From the NCBI GenBank assembly GCA_002686955.1, contig NYZA01000209.1:1-7208 (forward strand): a stretch of DNA of 7,208 nt. The letters run 5' to 3'. Below, one piece after another: positions 85-6,785 of this stretch. The notes under the pieces were generated by a model. It was given only the letters and a program-made list of their open reading frames with translations. It was not told the DNA's origin and did no database searches. A program made the translations under genes and the position numbers. Each line of letters starts with the position of its first letter. Within the stretch, counting starts at the first letter, position 1. This DNA comes from Gemmatimonadota bacterium (GTDB lineage: Bacteria > GCA-2686955).

Positions 85-2166
85 CTAGTCACCGACCGCC
101 ATCTGCACCGCCGCATCGCGGAAGAGCCAGTCCGGTGCGCTCCCGTCGAATTGGGCGGTTTCCGGGGGCACGACGCCGAACAGGCGGAGCATCACCGGCG
201 TCAGATCGATCAGGCTCATCGGGCGCTGATTCTCGCTGGGCGCGAAGCTCGACCCCGATGCGATGAAGATCCCGTTCTTCTGATGCCACCCCTGCATCTC
301 GTGATGAACAGTCTCGCCCTTGTCGGACAACACCCTTTGGAACTCCTCGGTGCCGGGCTCTTCCTTCCCTCTCATGCCGTGGTCGCTCATGATGATCACG
401 TTGTCGGCCTCGACGGAGTTCATGATGCGTCCCACGAGACTATCGAGCAGGCCGTAGGAATCGTGCAGCGCACTAGGATCGTCCCAGAACCAATGACCGA
501 CATTGTCGGATGTGTAGAGCACAATCGTCGCCAGATCGGTGGGGTGCTCGCGGACCAGCTTCTCCCAATAATGTACGCACTGCCGATCGGTTTCCCACTG
601 CTCTCGCAGAAACTCCGGAGTGCTCTGGGGTGCGATGCGGGGATGGGCCCGGTATCCCTGCAAAGTGCCGCGGACTTCGGGGGTCATGCGTTGTAGAGGT
701 GCGAAGCGGCCCGGCACGATGTAGCCCCGCATGGCACTCATCTGATAGGCCAGCGGCATATTGTGGAATCCGGTAGAGATGCCGGCTCGATTGAGATAAT
801 CCCACAGCTTCGGCACGCGAACATCAGCATAGCTCATGTCCTCGAAACGTCGCTGGTTTTCGTCGAATCCATGGCGATTCGGCTCGAGTCCCGTGAAGAA
901 GGAAGGCCAGGCACAGCCGCTCATTGGCGGCGATACGCTCGCCAGCTCACCGTGTACTCCTCCCTCGATCAGAGTCTTGAAATTCTCGAGGCGCGCGAGC
1001 TCCTCGAAGAGCAGGTTGGGGGTCATCCCGTCCAGTCCGATGACCAGGAGCCTTGTTCGCGGGTGGCTGCGCTCGGAGGCGCGGCTTCGATTCGTCGATG
1101 GCGAGGGGCTACAGAGAGCCTCGGGAGGTGGGGGCAAGGGGGTAGGTGGAGCGCCGCGCTCTTCGCCGGCAACCTCGCAAAGCTCATCAGAGGGAGGCGG
1201 GGGCACGGGAAGGGGCTGCGGCGGCTTCGCCGGCGCCGGCTCGTGCTTCGGCTCCTGTTCCTCCCCGGAGACAACAAAGCCCCCTTCCGTATCGAGTCGG
1301 TAGTCGAGCTCGAGACACATCTCCTCGAAGCGATCGGTGCGGGGACAGCCCGCAACAAGGCGGGCGTTCGGCATCGAACGCCATTTCCCGATCTGGGCCG
1401 AGTCGATGCCGGAGATCAAGCGCCGCAGTTCGGGAGACTCGAGAAGAGGAACATCGAGGAACTCGGAAACCCTCTCCAGGGTCCTTTCCGCAACCCCGAC
1501 AAGAGCTTCGAAGGGTACCTCGATCCTCCGCTCTGGATCGATCCCCTCCTTGGCCTGATTCCAAATCTCGTTCCAGCCGATCCACTGATCTCTACAATCC
1601 GCCATATTGAAACGCAAGCTCCCGGCAAATCCGCGCCGAGTGTTGCGATGGCGGAATAGAGATTCCATTACGTCGTATGGATGGCGATGGAGGAAGATGT
1701 AGCGTGCGGAAGGGAATACCGCCTCGATCTCATCTAGGGCGAAAATGTATTCGGGGTACTTGTCACCCCAGAGGAGGGGGCGGGGAAGATTGAGGGTGTG
1801 CGCATCGAAGCAGAGAGAGCGGATGAGTGCGTCGACATCTCCGGAGTCGGCCCACCGCTCCAATGAACCATCTCGCAGGTATCGGGAGAGCACCTGTTCC
1901 ACATTCGCGAAGATCGCCCGATGGGGTTCCGGCCCCTGCTCGCCTCCGACCCGCCTGAAGGCGTGAAGGAACTCCACCATGCGCAGATTCCGGAAAGCGG
2001 CTTTCGATCGACACTGACCGCGGAACCAGATCAACGCGAATCGAATCACACCGAGCTCCGAGCCGAAACCGGCATTCGGATGGGCGCCCAAGATACGCGC
2101 CATCAGGGTGGTTCCGGATCGCTGGCAGCCCAGCATGATCACGGGGGCTTCTGCGGTGCATTTCAT
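85..2166 (-). CDS. Sulfotransferase / type I phosphodiesterase (alkaline-phosphatase-like) fusion
   Basis: A 693-residue two-domain protein. Residues about 8-290 are a Sulfotransfer_3-type domain that should move a sulfo group from PAPS to a hydroxyl. The 5'-phosphosulfate loop is GCQRSGTTL (13-21), WGDKYPEYI (133-141) is the usual Lys-x-Pro element, and the 3'-phosphate site is FLHRHPYDVMESL with Arg161 and Ser169. Residues about 301-370 form a linker with about 20 prolines. Residues 371-693 are an alkaline-phosphatase-superfamily phosphodiesterase with an apparently complete site: Asp379 (GLDGMTP), nucleophile Ser416 (PPMSGCAWPSFFTG), Asp554 and His558 (SDNVGH), Asp595-His596 (SDHGM) and His628 (GWHQKNG). 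No signal peptide or membrane segment is seen, so it is probably cytoplasmic. It follows the degenerate paralogue by 26 bases, in what looks like one operon. Substrates are unknown; flagellin or flagellin glycan is suggested only by context. TAG ends it at 85, leaving 84 bases without a recognisable gene. Confidence 0.9.
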   Translation of the reverse strand: MKCTAEAPVIMLGCQRSGTTLMARILGAHPNAGFGSELGVIRFALIWFRGQCRSKAAFRNLRMVEFLHAFRRVGGEQGPEPHRAIFANVEQVLSRYLRDGSLERWADSGDVDALIRSLCFDAHTLNLPRPLLWGDKYPEYIFALDEIEAVFPSARYIFLHRHPYDVMESLFRHRNTRRGFAGSLRFNMADCRDQWIGWNEIWNQAKEGIDPERRIEVPFEALVGVAERTLERVSEFLDVPLLESPELRRLISGIDSAQIGKWRSMPNARLVAGCPRTDRFEEMCLELDYRLDTEGGFVVSGEEQEPKHEPAPAKPPQPLPVPPPPSDELCEVAGEERGAPPTPLPPPPEALCSPSPSTNRSRASERSHPRTRLLVIGLDGMTPNLLFEELARLENFKTLIEGGVHGELASVSPPMSGCAWPSFFTGLEPNRHGFDENQRRFEDMSYADVRVPKLWDYLNRAGISTGFHNMPLAYQMSAMRGYIVPGRFAPLQRMTPEVRGTLQGYRAHPRIAPQSTPEFLREQWETDRQCVHYWEKLVREHPTDLATIVLYTSDNVGHWFWDDPSALHDSYGLLDSLVGRIMNSVEADNVIIMSDHGMRGKEEPGTEEFQRVLSDKGETVHHEMQGWHQKNGIFIASGSSFAPSENQRPMSLIDLTPVMLRLFGVVPPETAQFDGSAPDWLFRDAAVQMAVGD

Positions 2167-2943: not shown

Positions 2944-3354
2944 TCAACCCTTGCGATCGATCACCGCGAAGCCGTCGCTCGTTCGCCCCGGGCGGTAGCT
3001 TTGGAGGATTCGGCGCCCCTTCTGAACCTTGGCCTCCTCGTTCCTGAGCTCGCGGCGCACATTCTCGAAACTGGAGAGGATCAGCCGATCCTGCTCCTGA
3101 ATCTCGTGGACGAGAACGACGCTGGCGGCGATCTCGCCACTCTCGTGGGTCAGGTCCTCGCTAGATGCGCTCGCCATCCAACCACTCGCCTCGGCCAGAA
3201 GCTCTTCGAGGATCGTGATCAGGCGACCACGATCGTCGATGAGAGATTGAAGTGTTCCGGTGTCGGTTCCGTCTTCGGCGGCCGCGTTCAGCTCCACAGT
3301 CACTCCCTTGAGCTGATCGTAGCCTTCACGCAAGAGTGAGAAAGGGGGTTTCAT
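2944..3354 (-). CDS. FliT/FlgN-like flagellar chaperone
   Basis: A 136-residue, mostly helical, charged protein without signal peptide or membrane segment. Its position immediately after fliD (2 bases between the fliD TAG and this ATG) is where fliT sits in many operons. The helical pattern fits small type III export chaperones of the FliT/FlgN group: a middle helix SLIDDRGRLITILEELLAE (residues 37-55), a long helix around 84-116, and the KVQKGRRILQSYRP segment (109-122), which resembles the Lys-Gly...Ala/Ser-Tyr ending seen in FlgN-like proteins. It would then keep FliD, or less likely the hook-associated proteins FlgK/FlgL, soluble before export. No strong ribosome site is seen, consistent with coupling to fliD. 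Sequence conservation in this group is poor, so the call rests largely on context and helical pattern. It could instead be an unrelated small flagellar protein. Confidence 0.6.
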   Translation of the reverse strand: MKPPFSLLREGYDQLKGVTVELNAAAEDGTDTGTLQSLIDDRGRLITILEELLAEASGWMASASSEDLTHESGEIAASVVLVHEIQEQDRLILSSFENVRRELRNEEAKVQKGRRILQSYRPGRTSDGFAVIDRKG

Positions 3355-3356
3355 GG

Positions 3357-5999
3357 CTAGCCGGTGTTCTTGGTGATCGCCGCGTTCAGGTTCTGCAGGC
3401 CCGCGAGCTGAGCGGTGAGAAACTCACCTTGGGTCTGAAAGCCGCTGATGGCCGTCTCCATGGCGACGAATTGTGCGATGAGTGACTCTTCGCGATCGAC
3501 CAGGCGTTCTTCCATCGACTCGATCTGATCTGCGAGCACATCGATCTGTGACTGAAGCGACGAGATCCGCCCTCCCACCAGACCGGTGGAGGAGGTGTAC
3601 CCCTCGATCAGCTCGTTCAAACGGAATCCCATGCCACGAGTAAACGACACATGCCCCTGGTTGGTGCCCTGAGTCGCAAGCTCGTCTTCCGTGAGAAGCA
3701 CCTCGACCGCGAGTCCTTTTGAGGCTCCGTTCTCGGATGTGAGCAGCCGGCCCGTGCCGATCGCCAGTTGACCATTGATGCGCCCTTGCACGTTCCGGCC
3801 GCTCGAAACGCCGGTCGATCCAAGGCCGAGGCGATCGTTGGCGGTCGAGGGAGGAGATTCGAGCTGAACGGTCGCGTCGGAACCCCAGGCAAGAGAGCGG
3901 ATGACCAGTCGGCCCTCATCGGGGTTCAGGCTGTCTTCTTCCCATACGACCTCGGCATCTTCCGCGCCGAAGCTGGTTTCAGCGTATAGAGAACGCTCCA
4001 CCATTTCGGCGAGGTCTTCGCCGCTGTTGTAGGTGCCTTCCTCGAGATTGAAGATACCGGTATCCTTGCCATCGATCGTCATTCGCAACTTCAGGTGGGC
4101 AACGTCGATCGTGACCGGATTGGCGACGGAGACTTCGATCTGATCGCCCGCCTGCTCACCGTGTGTCGCCGCCTGCGTCACTTCGATTCTGTAGCCCGAC
4201 GCTTCCGATACCGTATCGGTCGTGGAGCTGATGAAGCGGATGTCATCGTCGGTCGAGTCGCCGAGCTCCGAGAAAAGAGCGACGACTTCGTCAAAGTCCT
4301 CATCCAGCTTGCTTCGAAAAATCGACGTATCGAAACTGAGCGTTCCGTCGTTGCCTGAGCGGATGCCGACCTGAGCGAGTGTGCGAATGTCTCCCGCGAT
4401 CTCCGGCTGCACGCCGGTCACCATCGACCGCACTTGACTCTGAAGCGCGATCAGACTCGAGTCACCCAGGAGAACGCCCGCCTGATCGAGCTCCTGATCG
4501 TATTTGAATTGATCGTTGATGAGCTGAATCAGGTCGTTGTATCGATCGATGAAGGACTGAATATCGTCTTCGATTCCGGTGTTGTCGCGATCGATCTCGA
4601 GCGAGATCGTTGTGTCTTCATCGGCCGTGTGCAGATCGACGGTGACCCCTTCGATCAAAGTCGTGATCTGATTGGTGGCGGAGTACACCTCGATCGGGCT
4701 TCCGCCGGAGCCAAACTGAACGATCGCATCTTGCGCATCCTGAATCGTGTTGACTCCGGAGCCTGGAGTCACATCGAGAGTGAACTGATCCCCCTCTTCG
4801 ACCGAGGCTGCATCGAAGGCGACCTGGAGCCCGTCGCCCAGATCGATCGGATCGCCGGCGGTGTAGCTTGCATTCAGATTGAACTGACCGGAGTTTCCGT
4901 AGAGGTCGGTCCAGTCGACGAGTACGTTCTGAGAATCCGAGCCGACGAGCCCGTGGCCGGTCTCGAGATCGACGGTGAACGACTCGCCCTGCACGATCGA
5001 GCCGGTGGTTGGAAGTGTGAGCGTGACGCCCTCGGTGCCGACGGAGATCGGACTGCCATCGTAGGTCGGTCCGATCGTGACGGTTTCGGCGGTTTCGCCG
5101 TCGGAGAGAGTAAGCTCGATCGTATCGGTACCGAGTGTGCCACCTTGCGCCACGTAGAAATCGTAGGTCTTGTCTTTCGATCCGGTGTAGGTACCACCCA
5201 TCGTCGGCGTTGCGCCGGTCCAATCATCGAGATCGGGGCTTCCTATCACTGAATCGGCGAGAGTACCCACGGTGAATGTGAAGCTGTTTGCCCTGGTGCC
5301 GTAGTAGGCACCCGGAGTGCTGATCGTCGACGTGGAGTTGCCCGTCCAGGCCGATGCAACACTCGATCCCGGTGCTGTGAAGCTCAGCGATTCTTGTCCG
5401 CCCGTAAGACTGGATGTGACGGAAATCGTATTGTCCGCGCCGGTCTCGGACGAAGTGAGGATGAGTTGTTTGTTGTACGATGTCTCACCGGTGTCGATGA
5501 TCGATGCACTGACATCGATGCCGGCCGCGTTGATGGCGTCGCGAATCCCCTCGAGTGTGTCCTGGCCCGATTCGATCGTGACCGATTCCGTCGACTCCCC
5601 GACCGAAATCTGGATTGTGCCGGAGCCGAACGATGTGGTGTCGGAATCGTCGTAGCCAACCGAAGCGATCTGGTGATTCTGCGCGAGCTGGTTGACCGTC
5701 AAATTGTAGGTGCCGAATGCGGCGTTGCTCTCGGCCGTCGCCGTCAGAATCGTGTCGTCGGACGACAATGCGATGATCGCCGACTCGAAGGTAGTGGACC
5801 TCTGGATGATCGAGGCTTGCGATTGCACGCCGAGAATCATCGCCTCAATGCTCTTCCAAGCTGTGAGTTGGTTGGTCTTGGTGATCTGGCGGCTCTGAAG
5901 GACCGCGATCGGCCGCCGCTCGACATCCATGATCGCGGTGATGATCGCGGCGGTGTCGAGTCCCGACGCCAGACCGGAAACCGAGGTGGTGGGAGACAT
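3357..5999 (-). CDS. fliD: FliD, flagellar filament cap protein (oversized)
   Basis: FliD forms the cap at the filament tip and folds flagellin subunits as they emerge. The protein is 880 residues, about twice the 450-500 typical of enteric FliD. The N-terminal domain (about 1-110) has the usual start MSPTTSVSGLASGLD and the GTYNLTVNQLAQNHQIAS segment. The C-terminal family core begins near 419 with IQDAQDAIVQFG, then NQITTLIEGVTVDL (443-456), DDIQSFIDRYNDLIQLIND (478-496) and LLGDSSLIALQSQVRS (510-525). It resumes at about 785-875 with the terminal coiled coil. Two extra regions explain the size: beta-rich repeats at about 226-412, and an insert at about 590-780 that includes SGYRIEVTQAATHGEQAG, resembling a second copy of the N-terminal segment. 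No clear ribosome site precedes the ATG, which lies 4 bases after the flgM stop, so translational coupling is likely. Confidence 0.97.
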   Translation of the reverse strand: MSPTTSVSGLASGLDTAAIITAIMDVERRPIAVLQSRQITKTNQLTAWKSIEAMILGVQSQASIIQRSTTFESAIIALSSDDTILTATAESNAAFGTYNLTVNQLAQNHQIASVGYDDSDTTSFGSGTIQISVGESTESVTIESGQDTLEGIRDAINAAGIDVSASIIDTGETSYNKQLILTSSETGADNTISVTSSLTGGQESLSFTAPGSSVASAWTGNSTSTISTPGAYYGTRANSFTFTVGTLADSVIGSPDLDDWTGATPTMGGTYTGSKDKTYDFYVAQGGTLGTDTIELTLSDGETAETVTIGPTYDGSPISVGTEGVTLTLPTTGSIVQGESFTVDLETGHGLVGSDSQNVLVDWTDLYGNSGQFNLNASYTAGDPIDLGDGLQVAFDAASVEEGDQFTLDVTPGSGVNTIQDAQDAIVQFGSGGSPIEVYSATNQITTLIEGVTVDLHTADEDTTISLEIDRDNTGIEDDIQSFIDRYNDLIQLINDQFKYDQELDQAGVLLGDSSLIALQSQVRSMVTGVQPEIAGDIRTLAQVGIRSGNDGTLSFDTSIFRSKLDEDFDEVVALFSELGDSTDDDIRFISSTTDTVSEASGYRIEVTQAATHGEQAGDQIEVSVANPVTIDVAHLKLRMTIDGKDTGIFNLEEGTYNSGEDLAEMVERSLYAETSFGAEDAEVVWEEDSLNPDEGRLVIRSLAWGSDATVQLESPPSTANDRLGLGSTGVSSGRNVQGRINGQLAIGTGRLLTSENGASKGLAVEVLLTEDELATQGTNQGHVSFTRGMGFRLNELIEGYTSSTGLVGGRISSLQSQIDVLADQIESMEERLVDREESLIAQFVAMETAISGFQTQGEFLTAQLAGLQNLNAAITKNTG

Positions 6000-6003
6000 C
6001 GGA

Positions 6004-6327
6004 CTAGCTCGGCTGTTGGGGGCCGAAGATCGAGAGCAGCAGGTCCGAGATCTCTCGGCTGATTGCTGGAGAGTCGTAGTGGCCCGACTCGATGCGCTGC
6101 TCTATCTCGCGGATCCTCTCGCCTCGGGGAAAGGAGAGGTCGGGCATGCGAGCCTGGAAGGTGCGTGCGGTTTCGAGGTCGTCCAGTTTCTTGCGGGCCT
6201 CGGATGAGATCTTGACCGAGTCGGCTCTGCTGGGCCCAGCGCGGTCCCGATCCTTTCGTTCGCCCTCGGCGGCCTTGAGCGATGCCTGGTACGCGGCATG
6301 TGGTGTGCTGCCTGGACCGATCTTCAT
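6004..6327 (-). CDS. flgM: FlgM-like anti-sigma-28 factor
   Basis: A 107-residue protein resembling FlgM, the exported inhibitor of the flagellar sigma factor FliA (sigma-28). FlgM holds FliA inactive until the hook is complete and is then secreted, which releases late gene expression. The family pattern is present: a short polar, disordered N-terminus, then the SVKISSEARKKLDDLE segment (residues 37-52), then the sigma-binding helices with GERIREIEQRIESGHYDSPA (69-88) and a final EISDLLLSI helix. The ATG at 6327 is chosen because GGAG lies 7 bases upstream (6335-6338) and the protein then starts with MKIGPGS, as FlgM proteins often do. The frame stays open to 6855, but that part is out-of-frame fliS. 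The stop is 4 bases before the fliD start, suggesting coupling. The family call rests on motif recognition of a divergent small protein. Confidence 0.85.
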   Translation of the reverse strand: MKIGPGSTPHAAYQASLKAAEGERKDRDRAGPSRADSVKISSEARKKLDDLETARTFQARMPDLSFPRGERIREIEQRIESGHYDSPAISREISDLLLSIFGPQQPS

Positions 6328-6377: not shown

Positions 6378-6785
6378 TCATGTACCGGTCGGCTGTGCGA
6401 CCTCTTCCTTGAGTGCCGCGTCCGCGGGAACGCCTTCCCATCCTTCCTTGAGTGTGGTCAAGATGTCGATCGCCTCCCGGATCGGCGCGTCGGCCTGGCG
6501 CGTATTGGCGTCGATCAGGAGCCTGAAGACGTAGCCGTAGAGCTCGAAGAGGTTGCTCGCGATCTCGCCCCCTTCGTGGTTGAGCGACGACATCAGCTCG
6601 GCGACGATGCGGCGGGCGCGAATGATGCTGTTGTGAGCTTCTTCTCGGTTCTCTTTCTCGATGGCGTCCAGCCCCTGGCGCAGAAAACCGGTAGCGCCGG
6701 AGTAGAGCATGAGGATCAGATCCTTCTGGCCGGCGGTCATGACCCTCGCCTTCAGATAGCTTTGGTGCGCTGCGGGAGCTGCCAT
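6378..6785 (-). CDS. fliS: FliS, flagellin-specific export chaperone
   Basis: A 135-residue protein of the FliS family, close to the usual length. FliS binds the disordered C-terminal D0 helix of flagellin in the cytoplasm, prevents premature polymerisation and hands it to the export gate. Family hallmarks are visible: the N-terminal Tyr in HQSYLKARVMTAGQKDLILM (residues 7-26), LYSGATGFLRQGLDAIE, a central IVAELMSSLNHEGGEIASNL and LYGYVFRLLIDAN, and a Trp near the end of the last helix (KEGWEG). The ATG at 6785 has a purine-rich ribosome site, GAGGAAGAG at 6793-6801, with 7 bases before the start. It sits directly downstream of its client flagellin and 50 bases before flgM, in the same orientation. 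The last 17 or so residues (after KEGWEG) are a less conserved tail. Confidence 0.95.
   Translation of the reverse strand: MAAPAAHQSYLKARVMTAGQKDLILMLYSGATGFLRQGLDAIEKENREEAHNSIIRARRIVAELMSSLNHEGGEIASNLFELYGYVFRLLIDANTRQADAPIREAIDILTTLKEGWEGVPADAALKEEVAQPTGT

Follow-up and report, generated by a model that had tools for sequence, protein, structure and literature searches.

The stretch of DNA analysed here (the window, 7,208 nucleotides) is an entire contig of a draft genome that is 84.5% complete and consists of 270 contigs. Its genes lie on one strand, the minus strand, and in order of transcription encode the C-terminal part of a flagellin, cut by the contig end (6927-7208; Flagellin_C), the flagellin chaperone FliS (6378-6785; Pfam E 3e-34), a FlgM-like protein (6004-6327; Pfam FlgM E 3e-4, 21.3 bits against a cut-off of 25), the filament cap FliD (3357-5999; Pfam FliD_N and FliD_C), a FliT-like protein (2944-3354), a small protein of 213 residues (2193-2834) and a fusion protein (85-2166) whose gene starts 26 bases past the preceding one. 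The FliT-like protein falls below the Pfam cut-off (E 0.023) and was named for its position after fliD and for a 35% identical orthologue. At 880 aa, this FliD is unusually long. The fusion gene comprises a predicted sulfotransferase, a proline-rich linker and a predicted phosphodiesterase of the alkaline phosphatase (AP) superfamily.

The fusion protein and its two halves

An earlier note on this DNA had described the fusion as a single uninterrupted polypeptide, and this is borne out: the gene is one ATG-to-TAG frame of 693 aa with no internal stops. The N-terminus and Sulfotransfer_3 domain occupy residues 1-290 (1297-2166), and a compact PF01663 domain occupies residues 371-693 (88-1056), both delimited with Pfam, alignments and AlphaFold models. 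Between them lies a proline-rich linker of roughly residues 291-370 (1057-1296), delimited by comparison with an orthologue; the earlier note was correct as to its nature, but at about 80 residues it is longer than the 70 or so given there. The orthologue comes from a second genus of the same family, represented by a metagenome-assembled genome labelled Gemmatimonadetes bacterium (contig JALXCG010000553.1), which was the sole other genome of this phylum compared. It carries the identical two-domain fusion in one frame of 760 aa and is 65% identical overall. The fusion frame is thus real, and a sequencing or assembly artefact is ruled out as its source because the in-frame fusion recurs in another genus. 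By part, identity is 63% for the sulfotransferase, 74% for the phosphodiesterase and 42% for the linker, the last figure referring only to its alignable part since the linkers differ in length (about 80 residues, 78 as aligned, versus about 130, or 133, in the orthologue). Between the same two genera, FliD is 64%, FliS 59%, the FliT-like protein 35% and the small AP-like protein 38% identical. Both catalytic halves are kept at an identity like that of FliD or better while the linker drifts, as expected of a fusion that works.

The assignment of the N-terminal half to the PAPS sulfotransferases, made in the earlier note from the letters of the sequence, is supported by a Sulfotransfer_3 (PF13469) match at residues 8-241 that lies far above the cut-off (E 1.3e-30, 107.7 bits versus 27) and covers profile positions 1-214 of 216. 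Sulfotransfer_1 falls below its Pfam cut-off, and the sole NCBIfam hit is a weak, local one to NoeE that spans 36 residues. The signature residues named in the earlier note are all present where it placed them: the PAPS-binding P-loop GCQRSGTTL spans residues 13-21, and Gly13, Ser17, Gly18 and the 3'-phosphate-binding Arg161 and Ser169 are invariant in an alignment of 12 sulfotransferases. Glu37 falls in a column occupied by Glu in most relatives; a phmmer alignment sets the stretch GSELGVI of the fusion against GEETRVI of the tyrosylprotein sulfotransferase TPST1, pairing Glu37 with a Glu that both share. An AlphaFold model of residues 1-298 (mean pLDDT 85 from a shallow alignment) matches the CurM sulfotransferase (4gbm, Z 20.4) and the olefin-synthase sulfotransferase (Z 19.6), with an rmsd of about 3.5 over some 240 residues, and TPST1/2 at Z about 18. 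This half is accordingly a predicted PAPS-dependent sulfotransferase with intact active-site residues. An adenylyl-sulfate kinase (290 bits) in the window genome indicates that PAPS supply is present. As read from the sequence, the N-terminus of the fusion (MKCTAEAPVIMLGCQ) has no hydrophobic export signal, which fits a cytosolic PAPS enzyme.

The C-terminal half matches Phosphodiest (PF01663) at residues 373-617 (E 1.9e-28, 100.5 bits versus a cut-off of 23), reaching only profile positions 1-240 of 342. In an alignment of 20 rows (2 fused and 18 unfused), Asp379, Ser416, Asp554, His558, Asp595, His596 and His628 align with the D, S/T, D, H, D, H and H columns of the unfused relatives, among which one departs at two of the seven positions and one has a truncated start. 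All six metal ligands and the serine at the nucleophile position (Ser416) are kept. A mean pLDDT of 85 was likewise obtained for this half, modelled separately and again from a shallow alignment; the model matches ENPP1, ENPP3, ENPP7 and the Xac nucleotide pyrophosphatase/phosphodiesterase (NPP) at Z 26-28, with an rmsd of about 3 over some 280 residues (27.7 for mouse Enpp1, 4gtw; 26.5 for Xac NPP, 2gsn). The half is a predicted PF01663 phosphodiesterase with intact active-site residues. Thus the domain searches and structural models that the earlier note had suggested place each half in its own family, with folds of PAPS sulfotransferases and NPPs respectively.

The fused phosphodiesterase is a compact variant and not the typical full-length unfused type. 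His596 and His628 are separated by 31 residues, whereas all 18 unfused relatives have about 142-210 residues in this gap, a long segment that is a trait of the relatives compared rather than a defining feature of PF01663. With this presumed cap missing, the active site is probably more open to large substrates. The sequence at the nucleophile, SPPMSGCAWPSFFTG, departs from the formylglycine sulfatase motif C/S-x-P-x-R, and the Pfam Sulfatase model (PF00884) scores just under its cut-off (24.5 bits versus 25); editing of the sulfated product, a role put forward in the earlier note, is disfavoured on both counts.

Unfused relatives of the phosphodiesterase half are common and often occur in glycan gene neighbourhoods. 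Some of those in the window genome adjoin glycosyltransferase, carbamoyltransferase or MurJ-like genes, and relatives on haloarchaeal plasmids adjoin genes for a glycosyltransferase, a sugar aminotransferase, polysaccharide export or an asparagine synthase-like protein. About 14 stretches of the window genome are related to this half, several as tandem pairs (L037, L038, L039, L040, L041 and L042), an unusual expansion. Behind the haloarchaeal plasmid relatives (L151, L153 and L154) a GNAT acetyltransferase gene recurs, as though the two formed a fixed pair.

The flagellin operon in two genera

The earlier note made no use of the flanking flagellar genes, which point to filament modification. 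The survey of neighbours that it had recommended places the fusion in a flagellin operon that includes a glycosyltransferase gene. In both genera the order is GT2/TPR glycosyltransferase, flagellin, fliS, flgM-like, fliD, fliT-like, small AP-like gene and fusion, spread over two contigs in the window genome, with the fusion as the last gene of the flagellar run. In the second genome, the gene 5' of flagellin (L036 9741-11729) encodes a protein of 1023 residues in which two GT2 glycosyltransferase domains are combined with numerous TPR repeats (L036 11806-14877). Its orthologue in the window genome (49% identical; L059 9149-12187) lies on contig C43 directly upstream of a flagellin N-terminal part that runs off the contig end (L059 12249-13895). 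Only about 17 residues of flagellin are missing between the two pieces, as judged by the flagellin of the second genome, which makes it very probable that contig C43 adjoins the window. Since only two genomes have the fusion, conservation of this operon rests on one comparison between two genera of one family.

The GT2/TPR proteins are candidate flagellin glycosyltransferases of a type without a match to Maf, although their action on flagellin is itself something that we infer. No flagellin glycosyltransferase of the Maf type was found in the two genomes, which are 83-85% complete. The small protein encoded between the fliT-like gene and the fusion appears to be a shrunken relative of the C-terminal region of AP-superfamily enzymes, matching this part of the phosphodiesterase profile over 77 columns (hhalign probability 96.7%, E 3e-10), and by eye it has no recognisable metal ligands. 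Its orthologue occupies the same place in the second genus (L028 6102-6719, plus strand) and is 38% identical, with lengths of 205-213 aa. It may be a remnant or a pseudoenzyme, and perhaps a partner of the fusion. A PIG-L deacetylase gene 3' of the fusion in the second genome was not counted in the system; its window-genome homologue lies elsewhere, beside a pyruvate kinase-like gene.

Distribution and closest known systems

Outside the family, a profile search with a strict E limit yielded no second fusion in some 385 further genomes, a pattern scan of 84,980 species genomes found none beyond the same second genus, and none was present in the plasmids and viral contigs searched; such scans can miss distant members. 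The fusion was not found in the papers searched either. Like the earlier note, which recognised no family of this kind, we found none described in Pfam, NCBIfam, the PDB or the literature searched, and the architecture is apparently undescribed. On these sequence comparisons, the fusion of PF13469 and PF01663 is a real and conserved domain pairing that is narrow in distribution.

The pairing does not reflect a general linkage of the two functions. Of some 75 gene neighbourhoods around other sulfotransferases, only three had an AP-type phosphodiesterase within about 6 kb, roughly the chance level by our own uncomputed estimate, and none had flagellin; a general linkage of sulfotransferase and phosphodiesterase genes was rejected on this basis. 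In one unrelated genome (G050), the genes for a sulfotransferase and an AP-type phosphodiesterase overlap (L089 2247-5398, plus strand), an unfused version of the pairing to which flagellar genes are not adjacent.

Four known systems come closest. With PF13469 sulfotransferases such as CurM (4gbm) and human TPST1/2, the fusion shares the P-loop, the 3'-phosphate-binding Arg and Ser, the Glu after the P-loop and the fold, but it differs in its attached phosphodiesterase and in its place within a flagellin operon, and identity is only about 20-25%. With the NPP family of PF01663 (Xac NPP, ENPP1, ENPP6 and ENPP7) it shares the residues of the two-metal site and the fold; unlike these enzymes, it has a Ser nucleophile where Thr is usual, lacks the cap segment, shows no export signal and is tethered to a sulfotransferase. 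In Maf-type or FlmG-type flagellin glycosylation loci, a glycosyltransferase gene sits beside flagellin. The same arrangement is seen here, but with no Maf member found and with a sulfotransferase-phosphodiesterase fusion as the proposed tailoring enzyme. Finally, VNG1056C and VNG1057C of Halobacterium salinarum are AP-superfamily proteins that are encoded in a glycosylation cluster and affect sulfation of the N-glycan on archaellins and the S-layer; compared by description only, they differ in being sulfatase-like, in being encoded by separate single-domain genes and in acting on an archaeal N-glycan (PMC11980604).

A proposed role in filament modification

A flagellin operon with a glycosyltransferase points to modification of the filament. 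We consider it somewhat better than an even chance that the fusion works in the cytoplasm as a bifunctional enzyme that tailors the flagellar filament, sulfating flagellin or its glycan and processing a phosphodiester on it. From the domains, intact residues, folds, conserved fusion and conserved operon we infer its substrate, the order of steps and the choice between hydrolysis and transfer. The GT2/TPR glycosyltransferase encoded upstream would glycosylate flagellin, or FliD, before export, and the N-terminal domain would pass sulfate from PAPS to the resulting glycan. Using Ser416 as its nucleophile, the two-metal domain at the C-terminus would act on a phosphodiester of that substrate by cleavage or transfer, and might in this way add or trim a phospho-substituent, to give one example. 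Because the proline-rich linker is flexible, both sites might reach a single subunit, and without the cap segment the second site would be open to a macromolecule. Of the three roles suggested in the earlier note, action on a phospho-linked acceptor appears to fit best.

Other readings draw on parts of the same evidence. The position in the flagellar operon could be coincidental or regulatory, with the enzyme modifying an extracellular polysaccharide, a lipid or another metabolite, a reading that draws some support from the many AP-superfamily paralogues of this genome (14 match stretches), some by glycosyltransferase, carbamoyltransferase or MurJ-like genes, and from the unrelated G050 pair that lies away from flagellar genes. 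We think this unlikely, because the fusion holds the same end position of the same flagellar run in two genera. The most specific rival makes the sulfotransferase half a tyrosine sulfotransferase that acts on flagellin directly, like TPST or RaxST, while the phosphodiesterase has a different target on the filament. TPST1/2 rank among the nearest folds and have the Glu of the GSELGVI stretch in common; moreover, the known part of the window-genome flagellin contains just three tyrosines, each of them also present in the other genus, and two of them lie in NYIYDVDER beside acidic residues. However, the closest fold is that of the CurM and olefin-synthase enzymes (Z 20.4 versus about 18 for TPST), Sulfotransfer_3 enzymes have acceptors of many kinds, the acidic surroundings are not pronounced and might have a structural role, and the neighbouring glycosyltransferase favours a glycan acceptor, so that direct tyrosine sulfation is distinctly unlikely.

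Two further readings concern the phosphodiesterase half. NPPs hydrolyse nucleotide phosphodiesters and pyrophosphates, and the NPP fold of this half lends some weight to the suggestion, also made in the earlier note, that it removes PAP or hydrolyses PAPS and so pulls or regulates the sulfotransferase reaction. This is the least probable of the readings considered. PAP is a phosphomonoester at the 3' position that is cleared by CysQ/HAL2 enzymes, and the window genome encodes a strong HAL2-type 3'(2'),5'-bisphosphate nucleotidase (389 bits versus a cut-off of 267), so that PAP disposal has no need of a fused domain; destruction of PAPS would be futile; and the neighbours of the unfused relatives are glycan genes rather than genes of sulfate assimilation. 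Alternatively, the AP-fold half may be a sulfuryl or phosphoryl transferase, so that a single glycan would receive from the protein either two sulfates or one sulfate plus one phosphate. A large acceptor would fit an open active site, and VNG1056C and VNG1057C are both required for glycan sulfation and able to confer it (PMC11980604). As described there, these two proteins group with sulfatases and arylsulfatases and not with PF01663 (PMC11980604); we regard this reading as very improbable.

Modification of the filament glycan by both halves of the fusion may have a counterpart in archaea. In H. salinarum, two AP-superfamily proteins sulfate the N-glycan of motility and surface proteins, and deletion of VNG1056C slightly reduces motility (PMC11980604), which indicates that AP-fold proteins can belong to sulfation pathways. 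The papers searched contained no report of a sulfated bacterial flagellar filament. The fusion could offer a bacterial counterpart to the archaellin glycans that haloarchaea sulfate. A bolder version of the proposal, which we hold to be doubtful, is that this is the first bifunctional sulfo/phospho tailoring enzyme of the bacterial flagellum, combining glycan sulfation with an uncapped NPP-type site that is adapted to macromolecules and installs or exchanges a phospho-substituent, assisted by the neighbouring AP-like protein as a catalytically dead partner. Little is known of what the widespread unfused PF01663 relatives do in glycan clusters, and the location of the fusion in a flagellin operon supplies a testable substrate, flagellin, and with it a route to the function of the wider family.

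The stretch NYIYDVDER occurs in the variable domain of the flagellins of both genera, where most other tyrosines differ, and is a candidate sulfation site.
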